Virus record (IMG/VR): IMGVR_UViG_3300000117_000120 | Coordinates: 1-33,472 of that record | Origin: a virus | Length of the DNA stretch: 33,472 nt | Strand: one strand, 5' to 3' | Shown here: positions 1-33,472 of the stretch, one piece after another | Layout: each line of letters opens with the position of its first letter | Numbering within the stretch: the stretch's first letter is position 1 | The notes under the pieces: model-generated | Seen by the model: only the letters and a program-made list of their open reading frames with translations | Databases searched by the model: none | What the model was told of the DNA's origin: nothing | Made by a program: the position numbers and the translations under genes

Positions 1-69
1 ATGCAAAATAGATTTGCCAAAGATTTTAGCAACGCCCTTGGGTCAGCGTCTGAAAGCCTTGCCTGGTAA
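1..69 (+). CDS. Short or partial ORF at the window edge
   Basis: A 22-residue frame begins with ATG at base 1 and stops at 67-69. The last nine bases of the window (ATG AAA AGT, 33464-33472) would extend it in frame to 25 codons if the molecule is circular. No family is recognisable. It may be a real small peptide, the tail of a longer gene cut by the window, or chance. Confidence 0.2.
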   Translation: MQNRFAKDFSNALGSASESLAW

Positions 70-10437: not shown

Positions 10438-10472
10438 CAAAATTGTCTGGCGTAGCAATCCAACGGCTAATT

Positions 10473-11906
10473 ATGTCCGCCACTTCATTAGAAGCGGAAC
10501 AGGTACGGGCATTGATTGATAGCGACTTTGACCCACGGCGAGTAGCCAGTGAGAAGCAAGCTGCTATCGTAGCTATGGGTATTATTGTTTACGCTAAGAC
10601 AGCCGGTCACCCAATAGTAAGCTTGGGAGGTACGATCCATTTGTGGGACGGAACTCACTATACCAAGATTTCAATGAACGCACTCGAGTCATTGAAGGAA
10701 ATATTTGCTATTGCTTGCGGATGGACAAAAGTTGACATCGCCATGTCAAGATTCCATAAGGAATTTTACAAGGTGCTACATCGTCAAGCCGACCCCAAGA
10801 TTCTGTTCGGTGACCAATACAACCCTATGCGCGGTATCCCGTTTGAAGACGGGGTGCTAACCATCGACCCAGAGGGTAGGGAAAAATTCATAGATGGGCA
10901 TAGGGAGACGGATCTAACGCTGTACTGTATCCCACATCGGTATCGCGCTGGAGAAGTCCTGAACGCGAGTTGGAACAAGTTCGTAGAGCAAGCACTTCCT
11001 AACGAGGAGGAGCGAGCCTACGTTCTTGCTTCCATTGCGAACAGCATAGCTCTTGACCCCTTAAGGGCGCAGAAGATGCTTATCCTCCTTGGAGCCGCTG
11101 GAGCTGGCAAGAGTACTTTGATTGAAGCAATCAGTGCCTTGATCGGCAACAACAACACCATGCGTATCGACACGCTAGGACAGCTGACTCAAGAAGATAG
11201 CCGCCACCGGATGAAGTTGGCCAGCAGTACGCTGTGTATCTGTGGAGATGCAAGCGACAAGCTTGGCAACAAAGACGTCTTAAAGCAGATAGTTTCCAAG
11301 GAGGAGATTACGGCACGCATGCTTTACTCCGAGCCTTGCTTAATTCAGCCCATGGCGAGCGTGCTAGTGGCAACCAACGAGATGGGTTTTAGCCACGCAC
11401 TTAGCGACCCAGGCATGGCACGTCGGCTGGATGTAGTGCTGTTTACTCGATCAGTAGATGAGAAGAGCCGAGATAGCGAATTGCACTTAAAACTCCAGGA
11501 TCAAAAAGCAAAAGCTGCAATCGGTTGGTCTCTGGCAAAAGCTTTACTAAATCACACTGCAATGCACGGCAAGAGGTTGGTTCGACCTGATCAGATGATT
11601 GAAAGCTTAAGAAGCCTGAAGGAGGACGGCGATAGTTTGTTAAGCTTTTTAGCCTCAGTAGGACTTACTTCAGACCGCAGTGGTCGGTCAGCCACCATTC
11701 ATCAAAACGAACTGTTTCGTGAGTTCAACTCATACTGTTATGAGAATGGCTTCAAGCCTATGAGCATGCGCCGTTTGAAAGGCAAGCTGCGAAGTATGAG
11801 CGCCGAGTTGGTGCCGTGCCAGGGGAGAAAGCACAAAGTGAAATTATATATCGAAGACGAAAAGCTGTATCGTCAGAAGTCGAAAATGCATATAAACGCG
11901 GAATGA
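10473..11906 (+). CDS. D5-type SF3 helicase, replicative
   Basis: I choose ATG 10473; an in-frame TTG at 10443 is the alternative. Walker A GAAGAGKST lies at residues 207-215, the Walker B-like region TLCICGDAS at 253-261, the sensor VLVATNE at 297-303 and an arginine-finger candidate ARRLD at 316-320, the order seen in D5/P4-type SF3 helicases. The N-terminal 160 residues (IHLWDGTHYTKIS) match the D5_N-type domain; no zinc or primase motif is visible, so it may lack primase activity. The C-terminal 100 residues look like a DNA-binding winged-helix region. It is the only replicative enzyme seen, so the phage presumably relies on host polymerase. Confidence 0.87.
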   Translation: MSATSLEAEQVRALIDSDFDPRRVASEKQAAIVAMGIIVYAKTAGHPIVSLGGTIHLWDGTHYTKISMNALESLKEIFAIACGWTKVDIAMSRFHKEFYKVLHRQADPKILFGDQYNPMRGIPFEDGVLTIDPEGREKFIDGHRETDLTLYCIPHRYRAGEVLNASWNKFVEQALPNEEERAYVLASIANSIALDPLRAQKMLILLGAAGAGKSTLIEAISALIGNNNTMRIDTLGQLTQEDSRHRMKLASSTLCICGDASDKLGNKDVLKQIVSKEEITARMLYSEPCLIQPMASVLVATNEMGFSHALSDPGMARRLDVVLFTRSVDEKSRDSELHLKLQDQKAKAAIGWSLAKALLNHTAMHGKRLVRPDQMIESLRSLKEDGDSLLSFLASVGLTSDRSGRSATIHQNELFREFNSYCYENGFKPMSMRRLKGKLRSMSAELVPCQGRKHKVKLYIEDEKLYRQKSKMHINAE

Positions 11907-12088
11907 AATTAGATATACGCTGCGATATACAACAACATGGAATAGAATACGAAGAATGCGAAATGATAGCCTATGCGATCCTTGAGAGCATGGGAGACGA
12001 AAAGGAACTGCACGTCGACTTTGGTTTACTGCAGTACTACCTACACAAAAACGATGATGAAGTCATTTGCACAATCTCAAACTCATAG
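11903..12088 (+). CDS. Unknown 61-aa acidic protein
   Basis: ATG 11903 overlaps the helicase stop as ATGA, which favours it over an upstream in-frame ATG at 11816. Sequence: an N-terminal strand (KLDIRCDIQQHGIE), an acidic helix (EECEMIAYAILESMG) and a terminal region with Asp and Glu. No family is recognised. Coupled to the helicase, it may be an accessory factor. Confidence 0.5.
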   Translation: MKLDIRCDIQQHGIEYEECEMIAYAILESMGDEKELHVDFGLLQYYLHKNDDEVICTISNS

Positions 12089-12666
12089 ATGTGAAAGATG
12101 CTCATTATTACCGGCTCAAGGAAACTAAGTACTTGACCACCACCGAGGTTCACCTTATGTGCTACCGCATGAAGGAGGAGCTACGGCTTGTTACCAATCG
12201 CACGCTCAGGAAATCTGAACGCGCTCTTATGGCTTGGTTTCTACGCGAGTACTGTTACTTGCCCTTTAGCTTGATTGCAAAGGTGCTGGGCTACCGCAAG
12301 AGCGCTAACTGCAGGGAGAGCGTAGTACGTATCACGAATCGATTCCGAGATAGGGGTACGTGGCCACCGCACGATCCAGAAACGCATGACTGCTTCGAGG
12401 TATTTATGTCCGTGGCTTCTGACGAATACGACATCGATAACGTATCCCTGAGCGACATGGTGCTTGAAGAAGACCAAGAACATGCTTTATGGGCCGCATC
12501 ACAAGTCTGTGGTCATACAGACAAACGCAGCAGTCCAGGATGCAAAGCAACGCCAAAGCACAGTCAGCTGGAGATGGTCGAGACGGCTGTATGGCAACTC
12601 AACCACACCATGGAAGACATCTACTCTATTTGCGAAAAATATTATCTACTGCCCCATGATTCCTAA
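12067..12666 (+). CDS. Putative DnaA-domain-IV-like HTH DNA-binding protein
   Basis: A 199-aa frame from TTG 12067; GTG 12091 is another possible start, as no ATG fits. Residues about 44-90 (RTLRKSERALMAWFLREYCY, then SLIAKVLGYRKSANCRESVV) resemble the helix-turn-helix of DnaA domain IV, where R/K-rich helices precede a G-rich turn and a recognition helix. The rest, including EEDQEHALWAASQVCG, looks helical with no recognised domain. It could bind an origin or activate late genes. It overlaps the neighbouring gene at its 5' end. Confidence 0.55.
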   Translation: MHNLKLIDVKDAHYYRLKETKYLTTTEVHLMCYRMKEELRLVTNRTLRKSERALMAWFLREYCYLPFSLIAKVLGYRKSANCRESVVRITNRFRDRGTWPPHDPETHDCFEVFMSVASDEYDIDNVSLSDMVLEEDQEHALWAASQVCGHTDKRSSPGCKATPKHSQLEMVETAVWQLNHTMEDIYSICEKYYLLPHDS

Positions 12667-26325: not shown

Positions 26326-28206
26326 TTAGGCTGCAGTGAAATCGAAGTCAGACAATCCAGCGAATCCTGCACCGTTCAACACCTTAAAGTCTTTGTAGAC
26401 GTTAGTGATGATACGGACCACACCCTTCTCGGCGAAGGTGTAAGGATCCACCATAATGTTCAATCCACCCCATCCCGCTTGTACGCAGTTTGAGGCATCA
26501 GCCAAGTATACGTTCTCTGCAGTGCAGCTAGAGTTTACGATTGCTGGGTAGCCCATCAAGCTCAATCGCTCGAGTGGAGATGTAGCAGTCAACATGCCAG
26601 AACCTGTGTCCATGCTTACCTTACGAGCAACGCGGTATGCAGTAGAACCAGCGATAGCGCGGATGTTCTCGAGTGGAACATCAGCAGCCAACAAACCAGC
26701 TTCCAATCCGAGCAACGCATCCAAAGCGGCAGCGTTAGTTGCAGAGGCATCAGCAGTGATGGTTCCTCCTGCGGCAGTATCAGCAGCAGCATCGATAGCT
26801 GCGATAACGTCAGCGTTGAACTTCTCGTCGATCGCCTTGCGGATGTCAGCAGCGATGAACGCTCCCATGTCACCAGCAGACTGCGCCATCAACTGCTCAG
26901 AAACAGCAGTGTAGCAAGCGTAGCGTGTTGGAGACAAAGTAACCGCATTGAAATCTGGGTTATCGAGTGTAGCAGCTCGACCCTCTAGAGGCTTCGAAGC
27001 ATCGACTTCAGCATTTTGAACCTGGAATACGATGTTGCCAGAAACGCCACCTACGTTACGCGCACCCATCTGAGTAGCGATATCGTTGGGACGGAAGGCA
27101 GCAACCAATCCCTGGTCAACTGTGCCGATAGTACCACCGAACTGGTGCAAGTGAGTATCAGCAGTAGAACCAACACCGATTGGATCGTCAGTAGCACGGA
27201 GCATCATGCTAGGGACACAGAAGCCCTTGCTGATGTTTACCTGCGCAGACTTGTATTCGTTGCGGGCTTCTTGGTTCATTTCTGCTTCCAAACCAGACAA
27301 GTTGCCAGAAGCAGCTTCCTGGATTGCTTTTCCGAAGGAGTACCGCTTCTTTACGGTTCCCTCATTATCGCCCAAGCCTTGAATAATCGCCGGGGCAGGA
27401 TTTTTCTCTTTCATATTGTTTGAATTTGAGATGTTATTAGTACGAGCCTCCGGCTCAGGGTTTTCTTGTGAACGCATATCTTCTTCCTCTTCTTCTTCCT
27501 CCTCGTCTCGGTCTTCTTCTTCTTCTTCTTCTTCTTCTTCTTCTTCTTTGTAGTGGCCTGGTCGCTCCTCCATTTCTTCCTCTTCTTCTTCCTCTTCCAT
27601 GCGGGCTTCTACTTCTGTTTCGACTTCTTCAGCCACTTCCTCTTCCACCGCCGCGAATGCACGCGACTCCTCTTCAAGTTCTTCCAGTTCCTCTTCGACA
27701 GCAAACGCTTCCTCCATTGATCGCAGACCCACTTCCGTGGTGTCGTATGCGCCTTGCGTTGTTGGGCTAACGTCATACAGTACGTTCACTGCGTTGATTG
27801 TTCGGAGGTTGAGTCCGTCATCTCGCTTTTCCCAGCTATCGTCTTCGATAGTAAAGCCAAAGCTGCTTGTAGCGACAATGCCTTCGCGGATATTGATTGC
27901 GAGGTCTTTTGCGTATGATTGCTCTCCAAGTTCAAACCGGTATTTAAGTCCATTTTCGTCAACCTCTAGTTCCAATCCCTGACCCATACGGGCAAGTGGT
28001 TGGTTGTAGTCGTGATTGAAAAGTGCAACGGTTTGAGACATGTCTGCATTCTCGAACGCATTAGGGGCGATTCGTTCTGCAAAGCGGCCACCGATCGTAG
28101 TTTCTTCGTTGAAACGAGCAGCGTAGCCCTCTACGATAGTCTTACCATCTTCACTTGAACGAACCTCCATGTCGATCGAAATCGACCTTTTTTCTAAATT
28201 ATTCAT
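26326..28206 (-). CDS. HK97-type prohead protease fused to major capsid protein
   Basis: Residues 1-170 match the HK97-family (S78) prohead protease: IVEGYAARFNEE at 24-35, the histidine LFNHDYNQPLAR (H65) and the serine region EGIVATSSFGFTI (S114/S115). Residues about 164-255 form a very acidic, low-complexity region with runs of up to 11 glutamates, in place of a separate scaffold/delta domain. From about 265 to 626 comes an HK97-fold capsid region (VNISKGFCVPSMM, GNIVFQVQNAEVDASKPLEG, INVMVDPYTFAEKGVVRI-like end). Cleavage must occur at the junction; a free capsid could also come from an internal ATG at 27414. The total length, 626 aa, is close to the sum of both parts. Confidence 0.88.
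   Translation of the reverse strand: MNNLEKRSISIDMEVRSSEDGKTIVEGYAARFNEETTIGGRFAERIAPNAFENADMSQTVALFNHDYNQPLARMGQGLELEVDENGLKYRFELGEQSYAKDLAINIREGIVATSSFGFTIEDDSWEKRDDGLNLRTINAVNVLYDVSPTTQGAYDTTEVGLRSMEEAFAVEEELEELEEESRAFAAVEEEVAEEVETEVEARMEEEEEEEEMEERPGHYKEEEEEEEEEEEDRDEEEEEEEEDMRSQENPEPEARTNNISNSNNMKEKNPAPAIIQGLGDNEGTVKKRYSFGKAIQEAASGNLSGLEAEMNQEARNEYKSAQVNISKGFCVPSMMLRATDDPIGVGSTADTHLHQFGGTIGTVDQGLVAAFRPNDIATQMGARNVGGVSGNIVFQVQNAEVDASKPLEGRAATLDNPDFNAVTLSPTRYACYTAVSEQLMAQSAGDMGAFIAADIRKAIDEKFNADVIAAIDAAADTAAGGTITADASATNAAALDALLGLEAGLLAADVPLENIRAIAGSTAYRVARKVSMDTGSGMLTATSPLERLSLMGYPAIVNSSCTAENVYLADASNCVQAGWGGLNIMVDPYTFAEKGVVRIITNVYKDFKVLNGAGFAGLSDFDFTAA
27414..27414 (-). promoter_or_regulatory. 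Possible internal start for free capsid protein
   Basis: Met265 (ATG at 27414-27412) is preceded on the minus strand by TTCAAACAAT, the A-rich leader style of many genes in this window. Initiation here would give a capsid of 362 aa, near the usual HK97 capsid size, directly after the acidic region. Supported only by context and length. Confidence 0.35.
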
Positions 28207-30081: not shown

Positions 30082-31851
30082 TTACTTATCTCCGCCAACG
30101 ATGGCCATGAAAAACTCATAGCTCTGGTCTTCCTCTTTTTCCTCGAACGTAAGCATCTCTCCGATGCCCATGATAGCCGCAACCATGCCGTCAATCTTAT
30201 CTCCGGACTTGCCTTTGTCGGGTTTGATGTTGCCGCTGGGATCTACGCGCAAGGTCACGTTACCCATCATCCATCGCAACACCTCGTCTCCGCCATGAAA
30301 CAGCTTGCCGTCTAGTGCAGCCTTCTCTAATGCCTTGGAAGGAAAGCTCAAACTGGCGAAACCTTGACCAAAGGGGTCACACGGTACACCATCACCCTCC
30401 AAATCGCGTATCAAATTTAAACTGTTCCAACGGTCATACGCCACGCCCTTAATCATGTACTTCTCGCTCAGATTGTCTGGATCGTAGCAAACTTTGCCAT
30501 CTAAAACGTAATTTCCGCTCACTAAACGGCGAATTACGTCGTAATCCGTGACGTTTCCGGGCGTAATATGGACGTTTTCTAGCTCTTCAAAGCGGTTGTA
30601 TACGCTTGCTTCATCCCTTTCTAGCCTCTTTTGAACCGCTCTTTCCGGCAAAAAGTAGTGCATTTCAAGGCCATAACCCACGGAATCATCGCCAAAACAG
30701 ACCGCTAAAGCCGTAATATCGTCAGTAGCGGCAAGGTCGAGACCTAAATAAGCTAGCGGTTTTTCTGATTTTTCATCCAAAATATGGGCTGTAGATGGGG
30801 GTTGACAGTTCTCTTCACACATCCAGATGTCATCTTCAATCCAGATATCCTCCGATCCCACAAATATGTTCAGGTGCTTGACCATAAACTCGGTAATAGT
30901 GCGACCACCATAAAGCCTTGCATTCTTACACTGCTGCCGCAGGAACTCCATGCTAATGCTCGAACCTAAACCAGGGTTCGCCTTAATCCACACCTCCTCA
31001 TCATCCCACTTGTCATTCTCGTCTACCTCGTAGCAAACGAACAGCAGTCGCTCGTTGTCAGCTTTATTGTCCAGCACAGCTTTTCCGCCCTTGACAAATT
31101 GCATAGCCAAACCATCGACCACAAATCCCGCAGTACTGATGGCAAGCATGAGCGGATTCTTTCTTGAACCCATGGAACTAGCGAGTACCCTATAAAGGTT
31201 GCCGTCCTTGATCGCGTGCATCTCGTCGAGGCATGCCAAGTTCAGGGATTTACCATCGAGCGTAGAACTGTCTGAACTCAGAGGTACAATGGTTCCGTTG
31301 CGTGGTCCCAGTATCTCTGATCGATGAACCTTGAAACGCTTCAACAACAATGGACTGCTCTTGATGCACCGGGCAACTTCGTCCCAAACCTCACGGGCTT
31401 GATCGCGCTTTGTCGCTGCAGTCACAAACTGTGGCGCTCCATCTTCATCCAGCACAGCCATTGCAAGTATGATGGCACTGGCTAGTTGTGATTTGCCTGA
31501 CTTACGCCCTACAAACAGATGGGCTGTTGTAAATCTCCTGTAGCCTTGTGTCTTGTGTTTCCACCCGAATAGCTGTGCCAACAAAGCGACCTGCCATGCG
31601 CTTAGAAAAAATTTTTCTCCAGCTAACTCACCACGGGTGTGAACGCAAAACCTCTCTATGAAGTTTATGTACCTGGCGGCCTCCTCGGGATCGAATACCC
31701 ACTCGTAATCCTCAGACTCCGAGCTACGCAAATCACGTACAAATCGCTCATAGGCAAGTTTCACGTACTTGCCCACGACCACGCGACCTTCTAAAACGTC
31801 ATCAACGTAGCTCCATAATCTATCAAGTGCGGATATGTCGATCCCTGCCAT
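30082..31851 (-). CDS. Terminase large subunit, HK97-type
   Basis: The 589-aa ATPase-nuclease has a Walker A at residues 115-122 (GRKSGKSQ), Walker B LACLDE at 205-210, motif III region LMLAISTAGFV (about 234-244) and nuclease aspartates D372 (YLGLDLAATDD) and about D554 (GDKIDGMVAAI). It is the motor that pumps DNA into the prohead and cuts it at the end. It follows TerS in transcription order: TerS ends in TGA and the ATG follows one base later (TGAGATG). Confidence 0.95.
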   Translation of the reverse strand: MAGIDISALDRLWSYVDDVLEGRVVVGKYVKLAYERFVRDLRSSESEDYEWVFDPEEAARYINFIERFCVHTRGELAGEKFFLSAWQVALLAQLFGWKHKTQGYRRFTTAHLFVGRKSGKSQLASAIILAMAVLDEDGAPQFVTAATKRDQAREVWDEVARCIKSSPLLLKRFKVHRSEILGPRNGTIVPLSSDSSTLDGKSLNLACLDEMHAIKDGNLYRVLASSMGSRKNPLMLAISTAGFVVDGLAMQFVKGGKAVLDNKADNERLLFVCYEVDENDKWDDEEVWIKANPGLGSSISMEFLRQQCKNARLYGGRTITEFMVKHLNIFVGSEDIWIEDDIWMCEENCQPPSTAHILDEKSEKPLAYLGLDLAATDDITALAVCFGDDSVGYGLEMHYFLPERAVQKRLERDEASVYNRFEELENVHITPGNVTDYDVIRRLVSGNYVLDGKVCYDPDNLSEKYMIKGVAYDRWNSLNLIRDLEGDGVPCDPFGQGFASLSFPSKALEKAALDGKLFHGGDEVLRWMMGNVTLRVDPSGNIKPDKGKSGDKIDGMVAAIMGIGEMLTFEEKEEDQSYEFFMAIVGGDK

Positions 31852-31852
31852 C

Positions 31853-32314
31853 TCACAACAATTGGTCTATAGCATCACCCTCGGCAGATTTTGTCTTTGA
31901 GGATTCCACATTGTTCACCGCTCCCATAATCCGGGTGCGGTCCATGGGTGACAGTCCTAGCTTTGCGCTCAACTTCAGTACTTGGTCCTGCGCCTTGCTC
32001 AGTGCAGTAAAGGCACCGCTCACATTGCTGCTTCCGTTTTGGTAGACCTGCACCATATCGTCATAGTCGTGTACCTCGCGGGCGCACGTAATGTATAAGG
32101 CCAGGCTCTTAGCGAGCATGGTCACCGTGATCACGTCGACTTCAGCAATCAAGTCGCTCTTTTCAAGGTATTGTACTACACGGTAAAAAAGCTTCTCACC
32201 CTCCTCGTCCAAAGTGAATATCGGCTTTAGGTCTATGGACTCCTTGGCCTTTACCTCTTTGTCTTTCTTAGGTTGCTTCTTCAGCGCGTACTTCTCTTTG
32301 AGATCGTCTATCAT
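31853..32314 (-). CDS. Terminase small subunit, P27 family
   Basis: The 153-aa protein starts with a basic polar region (KEKYALKKQPKKDKEVKAKE), followed by helices with LFYRVVQYLEKSDLIAEVDV, ALSKAQDQVLKLSAKLGLSP and RTRIMGAVNNVES, the end typical of P27-family TerS. It recognises the packaging site and recruits TerL. The nearby cluster of GGGWGACATAG repeats, upstream of the HNH gene, is the best candidate site. Four-base overlap with the upstream gene. Confidence 0.83.
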   Translation of the reverse strand: MIDDLKEKYALKKQPKKDKEVKAKESIDLKPIFTLDEEGEKLFYRVVQYLEKSDLIAEVDVITVTMLAKSLALYITCAREVHDYDDMVQVYQNGSSNVSGAFTALSKAQDQVLKLSAKLGLSPMDRTRIMGAVNNVESSKTKSAEGDAIDQLL

Positions 32315-32724
32315 ATAGGTAGCTCTGATTCTACTCCGCTCATTTCAAACCACCGGCTATTAATAACGCCAGTCACTCCGTCTGTTTCCACTTCAACTTG
32401 CGTGCTAGTCAAAGTACACTGCATCAGGGTGTGATCGTCGTTGTAACCTTCGAGCGCCGTGAGCAGCTGGCTCATCTTTGCAGTTACGGTGCTGACCTTG
32501 TCACCATAGATGGCGTAGTCTACTTCGTGGATGATGGCCGCGTTGCCGGTTTGGACATTTACGCGATTAGAGTCATTGATGAAAATGCTCACCGATAAGG
32601 TGGCCGGGTCGATGCCCTGGGGTCTGTAGCCTTGGATGACATTGTCGGCAGAGATGCCTGTAATCTCTGAAGCTGTTATTGCATCGGTTACGACCTTACG
32701 TGCCTGGATTGATATTCTTTGCAT
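32311..32724 (-). CDS. Tail-terminator-like protein, upstream of TerS
   Basis: The 137-aa sequence has DUF3168-like features: an N-terminal helix (ARKVVTDAITASEITGISAD), YRPQGIDPATLSVSIFIND, HEVDYAIYGDKVSTVTAKMS and a terminal beta-rich part (QCTLTSTQVEVETDGVTG). Tail-terminator proteins of this type cap the tube and join it to the head, but they normally sit after the head closure genes. Finding it at the head of the packaging operon is odd, and the family call is moderate. Overlaps TerS by four bases (ATGA). Confidence 0.5.
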   Translation of the reverse strand: MQRISIQARKVVTDAITASEITGISADNVIQGYRPQGIDPATLSVSIFINDSNRVNVQTGNAAIIHEVDYAIYGDKVSTVTAKMSQLLTALEGYNDDHTLMQCTLTSTQVEVETDGVTGVINSRWFEMSGVESELPI

Positions 32725-33172
32725 TCTTCTTTTTTAAAAACTTAGCCCATTCTTCGAAGGTGTCAAAATGCACACCCTTGGCTTCGTATGATGCTCGTCG
32801 TGAATTACAGCTGCGGCAGCTACCGACGATGTTGCTCTGATCGTAGAACTCATAATCTGGTAATCGTCGTGATGGTATGACGTGGTCCGCCTCCGTACTT
32901 GGTGTCAGCTTACTCAACTCGAGACACCAAACGCACACGGGATCGCGCTGAAGCACGGCCTCCCTGGTAGCCTTCCATGACGGGCTGTGGTATCTGGGGT
33001 CTGTGGTATAGTTCATAAATGGTTTCTTCAACTTGCCGGTAGTCAGCTCGCGCTCGTTGCGACCCTTCTTCTTCGCCATCCATGGCTTCCTCCTACCGTG
33101 CCGTTTGATCTCCATCTCGCAAATGTGTGATGCAGCTGCGGATTTTAACTCGAGCATTTCCGTGAGTGACAT
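32696..33172 (-). CDS. HNH endonuclease, packaging-linked
   Basis: The HNH core is clear: DPVCVWCLELSK with two Cys, EADHVIPSRRLPDY (the D-H of the first motif), SNIVGSCRSCNSRRASYEAK with two more Cys, and FDTFEEWAKFLKK. HNH proteins next to TerS/TerL stimulate terminase cutting in HK97-type phages. The start could also be an internal ATG at 33079 (MAKKKGRNERELT), since the first 31 residues look less conserved. Its upstream region holds the GGGWGACATAG repeats, and it is the first gene of the late operon. Confidence 0.9.
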   Translation of the reverse strand: MSLTEMLELKSAAASHICEMEIKRHGRRKPWMAKKKGRNERELTTGKLKKPFMNYTTDPRYHSPSWKATREAVLQRDPVCVWCLELSKLTPSTEADHVIPSRRLPDYEFYDQSNIVGSCRSCNSRRASYEAKGVHFDTFEEWAKFLKKKNAKNINPGT

Positions 33173-33174
33173 GC

Positions 33175-33422
33175 GGGAGACATAGATTTCCCTATGTCAC
33201 CCATCGCTATCCCTTGCTGTCATTGACTTTGCGGGCTGCCGGGAGACTTAGTGACATGATCTGCTCTAAAAACTTTCACGGCACAAAATATTTCTGCGAG
33301 CGAATTTTTCTATTTCTATGTCTCCATGTCTCCCAAATCTCTGAGTGTATAGGTTTTACTGGCCTTACAGCGGGTGACATAGCCGATTTTACGTCACCCA
33401 AAAGTCTCCCTGGGAGACATAG
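33175..33422. repeat. Cluster of GGGWGACATAG repeats in both orientations
   Basis: Plus-orientation copies: GGGAGACATAG 33175-33185, GGGAGACTTAG 33241-33251, GGGTGACATAG 33372-33382 and GGGAGACATAG 33412-33422. Minus-orientation copies: CTATGTCACCC 33192-33202, CTATGTCTCC 33316-33325, ATGTCTCCC 33326-33334, GTCACCC 33393-33399 and GTCTCCC 33404-33410. 33175-33202 makes an 11-bp inverted repeat with one mismatch, and 33404-33418 is the palindrome GTCTCCC-T-GGGAGAC. Two units extend as ...AGCC...CGATTTTAC (33372-33392 and 33412-33435). No gene covers this 300-bp gap. Confidence 0.75.
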
Positions 33423-33472
33423 CCCCCGATTTTACCCCCCCTGCCGAGATATAGGTCGAGGGTATGAAAAGT

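Follow-up and report, generated by a model that had tools for sequence, protein, structure and literature searches.

The tailed-phage contig IMGVR_UViG_3300000117_000120, the whole of which (33,472 nt) is the window analysed here, ends to the right of its packaging genes in a region crowded with copies of a GGGWGACATAG repeat. Two questions are raised by this locus: (i) where does the phage genome end and (ii) are the repeats read by the packaging machinery, by a replication initiator or by a regulator of late transcription. An earlier note on this DNA had listed all three functions for the repeats.

Packaging genes and relatives

Searches with TerL, HNH and TerS returned >60 related contigs, and the order HNH, TerS, TerL, portal is kept in those long enough to judge, with inserted genes in the HNH–TerS interval of many. 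The genes past TerL encode the portal and then a protease–capsid fusion; in the window, the Peptidase_S78 prohead protease and the major capsid protein form a single 626-aa ORF (26326–28206, minus strand). The packaging order given in the earlier note (HNH, an ORF, TerS, TerL) stands; its 'tail terminator' label for the ORF at 32311–32724 found no match in Pfam or PHROG (Table 1). The HNH protein matches the fold of GVE2 HNH (5h0m, E = 8.5e-6), and an alignment of relatives puts its conserved start at M20 (33115) rather than at 33172, which extends the non-coding interval beyond the length stated before. For TerS, no convincing sequence match was found in the PDB; its predicted structure is of low confidence (pLDDT 66), and a PDB fold search with that structure was uninformative. 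No close relative was present among the phage records searched, and a scan of genome collections for prophages of this family returned only a distant HNH from Chloroflexi.

Table 1. Coordinates of the packaging genes, genome ends, repeat clusters and proposed readers in the window
Feature	Position	Strand	Remarks
Left end of record	1–20		Probably the other cohesive end, GC-rich overhang missing; inferred from the L034 junction
P4-alpha-type SF3 helicase, C-terminal Pox_D5-like region	10443–11906	+	DUF5906 4.9e-11; proposed iteron reader
HTH-like p12067	12067–12666	+	Adjoins helicase in 15/15 early-side genomes
TerL (large terminase)	30082–31851	-	phrog_9, PHROG common to HK97 gp2
TerS (small terminase)	31853–32314	-	Terminase_4, phrog_83
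ORF between HNH and TerS	32311–32724	-	No Pfam or PHROG match
HNH endonuclease, phage packaging type	32696–33172	-	Pfam HNH, PHROGs 589/144/2323
Cluster D: 33192–33202(-), 33175–33185(+), 33163–33172(+)	33163–33202		
Cluster C: inverted iteron pair GGGAGACTTAGTGACAT	33241–33257	+	Counterparts in relatives
AT-rich stretch directly past cluster B	33276–33315	-	Possible melting region
Cluster B: tandem iteron pair GGGAGACATGGAGACATAG, period 8 bp	33316–33334	-	
Cluster A: 33412–33422(+), 33402–33410(-), 33389–33399(-), 33372–33382(+)	33372–33422		Counterparts in relatives
G7 run (GGCA-GGGGGGG-T)	33435–33441	-	Six G invariant in 22/22 non-redundant relatives
31-bp spacer, genome end (33472 = +1, reading leftwards) to G run	33442–33472	-	Candidate TerS box by position

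The right end of the record

A distance of 31 nt separates the contig end from the G run both in the window and in L033, L042, L050–L052, L059, L061, L066, L069 and L029; in several more relatives it is 29–32 nt, and in 15 of the 34 non-redundant relatives it is 25–32 nt. Divergent relatives thus have contigs that terminate at the very base where the window does. The first bases from the right end are RTCTTTC-like. Contigs that cross this point (L017, L034, L038, L040, L065, L075, L082–L084 and L088) read GGAC-CGGCGGCGGGNG-RTCTTTC, with a GC-rich segment of 12–13 nt at the junction, and the 36-kb contig L041 ends exactly in ..GACCGACGGCCGGGGG and begins with GTCTTTC. L183 and L188, from the early side, begin with GTCCC and the far end of L060 reads ..GGAC, which indicates that early-side contigs stop across the GC-rich segment. 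The genome ends are fixed, in that contig ends coincide on both sides of this segment in divergent relatives. It is very likely that position 33472 is a cohesive end (cos), the simplest account being a single-stranded overhang of 12–13 nt, presumably a 3′ overhang, that would have been lost in library preparation. Assembled metagenome contigs alone thus suffice to place cos to the base. The earlier note had offered the repeats as a candidate cos or pac site; a cos does lie at this locus, with cosN at the contig end itself, ~50 bp outside them.

The junction in L034 reads ..GGCAATTCCAAT/CGGCGGCGTCCCA/GCTTTCC. The left end of the window, ..GGCAAATCTATTTTGCAT, fits the left flank of this junction, and the record is therefore probably an essentially complete linear phage genome minus the overhang. 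We also note that cosN and its flank (CGGCGGCGGGTGGTCTCGC) are tandemly doubled at positions 55–110 of L083 and that the far end of L041 carries a short duplicated end sequence; either an assembly artefact or a real duplication of cos would account for these.

The cos site of HK97 has a 10-nt 3′ overhang and its cleavage is HNH-stimulated; the small terminase site extends from +15 to +29 relative to the cut, with an A:T tract at 24–29 (PMC11331095). In our 31-bp spacer an A/T tract is conserved at +21 to +26 (T24/T25 in 20 and A21 in 16 of 22 non-redundant relatives), the same distance from the cut. Because this tract lies at the position of the HK97 small terminase site, the spacer is, by positional analogy, our best candidate for a terminase box. 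The likeness extends to TerL, which shares its PHROG with gp2, and to the HNH protein, whose PHROGs are shared with gp74, but not to TerS, which belongs to phrog_83 here and to phrog_5601 in the case of HK97 gp1 (hhalign probability 0.1%, homology not detected). The layouts also differ: in HK97, TerS starts at +50 and there is no iteron array, whereas here an array and the HNH gene come after cos.

Organization of the repeat array

Seven sites match GGGWGACATAG with at most one mismatch, at 33175(+), 33192(-), 33241(+), 33316(-), 33324(-), 33372(+) and 33412(+). All lie within 33175–33422, and there are none elsewhere in the 33,472-nt record. With a two-mismatch copy at 33389(-) and additional GWGAC half-sites at 33163–33172, 33251–33257 and 33402–33410, they make the previously described two-orientation repeat cluster real. 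When up to two mismatches are allowed, the window contains 19 matches against 11.2 expected across the entire 33,472 bp, and eight of the 19 fall inside ~250 bp where <0.1 would be expected. An 11-bp inverted repeat pointed out before (33175–33185/33192–33202) is present with 10 of 11 positions complementary, and in the 15-base palindrome GTCTCCC-T-GGGAGAC only the odd central base breaks the symmetry. Counting the motif across the genome and its relatives bears out its confinement to this locus, since exact GGWGACATAG occurs in 25 related contigs only in the interval before HNH. A cluster scan identifies the array as the densest repeat cluster of the window; a similar scan recovers crr and ori of P4. 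Rfam gave no match, and a scan for sigma-70 promoters found nothing.

Reading leftwards from the right end, the order is cosN, 31 bp, G7, array and HNH, with ~9–13 iterons between the G7 run and the HNH gene. This array and its layout are conserved in >30 non-redundant genomes. Of the 33 non-redundant arrays scanned, 32 have the tandem pair of cluster B, and AT content rises from 0.51 before this cluster to 0.66 after it (higher in 30 of the 32 pairs; Wilcoxon p = 3e-6). Across relatives, cluster A consists of units in reverse orientation, cluster B is a tandem pair in forward orientation and cluster C is a reverse tandem pair, often located 18 bp past an AAACTTT element, and the extra cluster D is seen in the window, L033 and L034. 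A palindromic element, CCAGTGTTTACTGG..TACAG, stands just before cluster B in the window (~33335–33370), L034, L053, L057, L072 and L088, and is also found upstream of cos in some genomes.

The iteron unit differs by lineage, with GAGAC, GTGAC, GAGAG/GTGAG and ATGAC forms. Some arrays are mixtures, but the units inside one array mostly agree, and this agreement points to a sequence-specific trans-acting factor that would read the array.

Covariation of the array with the helicase

Each of the 15 genomes for which the early side is available encodes an SF3 helicase. It aligns with residues 368–747 of P4 alpha (hhalign, 97%, E = 6.6e-11), from D5_N through the C-terminal Pox_D5-type domain, and phrog_864 is common to the two proteins. 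Most members of the helicase family have D5_N; the Pox_D5 match is weak for the window helicase alone (E 0.039).

Similarity between arrays correlates best with similarity between helicases (0.55), followed by p12067 (0.48), TerS (0.40), TerL (0.39) and HNH (0.35), and the helicase again ranked first with a second array metric. In partial Mantel tests, which are prone to false positives and here have n = 14–18, the correlation of the array with the helicase C-terminal region is 0.42, 0.38, 0.43 and 0.34 given HNH, TerS, TerL and p12067, respectively (all p <= 0.0035); the reverse tests, with the helicase C-terminal region controlled for, give -0.05, -0.05, -0.08 and 0.14, with p = 0.69 for TerS and p = 0.15 for p12067. 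L047 has the TerS and HNH of clade 2, yet its array is of the GAGAC type that belongs to the other clade. By these sequence comparisons, the iteron unit tracks the helicase and not HNH, TerS or TerL. Iteron variants matched to helicase variants constitute a natural series, and P4-alpha-type iteron recognition is thereby made testable.

The protein encoded next to the helicase, p12067, was assigned to no family by Pfam, PHROG and profile searches. The idea that its recognition helix follows array type was set aside, as the relationship is not significant with the helicase controlled for. It is possible that p12067 is an initiator partner or a late regulator.

A possible P4-type origin beside cos

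Because the repeats vary with the helicase and resemble the iterons of the P4 origin, we favor the interpretation that the array is a P4-type replication origin located beside an HK97-like cos, and give it about an even chance of being correct. An origin was among the functions listed in the earlier note, and it is the one to which the P4-like layout and the helicase covariation lend weight. We infer that the helicase would bind the iterons via its C-terminal domain and melt the AT-rich DNA next to the tandem pair, initiating replication. Concatemers produced from such an origin would then be cut at the adjoining cosN by TerL, TerS and HNH.

In the annotated P4 sequence, the type 1 repeats of ori and crr (GGTGAACA/TGTTCACC) occur in tandem every 9–11 bp and in both orientations, on either side of AT-rich DNA. 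The array described here similarly has short iterons with an 8-bp core, arranged in tandem and inverted next to AT-rich DNA, and a homologous alpha-type SF3 helicase is encoded in the same genome. P4 AAGGTGAACAGAGGTGAACAGTAAAATATAAAAAAAC resembles TTGGGTGAGAAGGTGAGATAATTTTTAAAAAAAGATATC of this family and closely resembles its GTGAG-form TTGGGTGAGAAGGTGAGATAATTTTTAAAAAAAG; a GGTGA core is present in some lineages, and nothing more of the P4 unit is shared. Indeed, the unit here is GGWGACAT/GGWGAG (GGGWGACATAG in the window) and not TGTTCACC/GGTGAACA, the array is <0.4 kb from cosN, and the helicase, at 487 aa, is shorter than P4 alpha, whose Zn-ribbon/Toprim primase part it lacks. PICI origins, with two iteron sets around an AT-rich region (PMC6092414), offer a second parallel. 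Like the array, those of PICI/SaPI elements are near packaging genes, but here the element is a full phage, the array is beside the phage's own cos and the rep gene does not adjoin it.

The P4-type origin interpretation is tempered by the small sample and false-positive risk of the partial Mantel tests and by the weak Pox_D5 match of the window helicase. Moreover, the array lies strictly next to cos in every relative, as a packaging element would too, and other early-side repeats of some relatives (TGTAGGA, CGACGAA and GTATAAA) could be the origin instead. Lineage-specific arrays of this kind are located on the early side of cos in L084 (~35301), L072 (~36251), L038 (~4151), L088, L071 and L262, with units TGTAGGA.., GTATAAA, CGACGAA and GTGTACTTTGGACACGATAT, and TTATCAACA is found in tandem in L038 and L202. 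These arrays are candidates for an alternative origin or an early operator.

Genome ends, cos and a probable origin are now defined for an uncultured phage family with >60 related contigs. If it is true that ori and cos share a 350-bp region, the family would provide a compact system for the handover from replication to packaging.

Packaging, regulatory and chance readings of the array

The order cosN-spacer-G7-array-HNH is fixed in all relatives, and where genes are inserted between the array and HNH (L063 and L076) the array is still with cos, as might be expected if it were a cosB-like packaging element, with TerS or HNH as the iteron-binding protein and an AT-rich bend that unites the inverted pairs. 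In lambda, cosB has three TerS sites, with R3 and R2 inverted around an IHF bend (PMC4669245). Its arrangement (R3-I1-R2-R1), in which oppositely oriented repeats lie on either side of a bendable segment between cosN and the terminase genes, fits the layout and cos linkage of our array, but there are 8–13 sites here instead of three, they do not track TerS, and the IHF site is known from lambda. Given the helicase, the array does not covary with TerS, TerL or HNH, L047 combines the packaging proteins of one clade with the array type of the other, and HK97 needs only a 15-bp site, at the position of which an A/T tract is conserved here, and has no such array. A cosB-like function is therefore unlikely, though it deserves real weight; the earlier suggestion that terminase recognizes the repeats is not supported, as they vary with the helicase and not with TerS, TerL or HNH. 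It is quite improbable that, in a fused cos–ori element, one array doubles as helicase-read origin and as a TerS/HNH assembly platform or timing switch, such that occupancy by the initiator decides whether a genome end is replicated or cut.

In many relatives a TAnnTTTG-like element precedes the HNH start by 12 bp, with cluster C a further 31 bp before it, and this makes a late-operon operator, also listed before, possible. An early HTH protein (e.g. 12067–12666) would bind the array and control transcription from HNH onwards, and an HTH-like protein is indeed encoded beside the helicase in 15/15 early-side genomes. However, in L063 and L076 the HNH start is ~760 bp from the array, the distance from cluster C to the start varies from 15 to 62 bp, and covariation between p12067 and the array is nonsignificant given the helicase (0.14, p = 0.15); we consider this function improbable. 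The unit is short and degenerate, and exact-pattern scans hit elsewhere by chance, but the conservation of array and layout in >30 non-redundant genomes leaves a vanishingly small probability that these are chance or low-complexity repeats without function.

Promoter-like elements and other repeats

TANNTTTGY is the Bacteroidota-type -7 promoter element. Five of its 15 matches in the record are within positions 1–284 of the window, on both strands, and this cluster suggests early promoters and possibly a Bacteroidota host. In L050, L042, L058, L040, L066 and others, the distance from the TAnnTTTG-like element down to the conserved HNH start is exactly 12 bp, a spacing that would imply a near-leaderless promoter.

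When viral contigs were scanned with the tandem-pair pattern for satellites or for arrays detached from such phages, most hits were due to chance. A dense GGAGAC array is located between an AAA helicase-like gene and packaging genes in L284 (IMGVR_UViG_3300047401_000128). This contig was rejected as a relative, being an unrelated lambda-type phage with a GpA-like large terminase and no HNH of this family nearby. In the window itself, the left intergenic region (296–559) contains 3–4 copies of CGGCAACGG.
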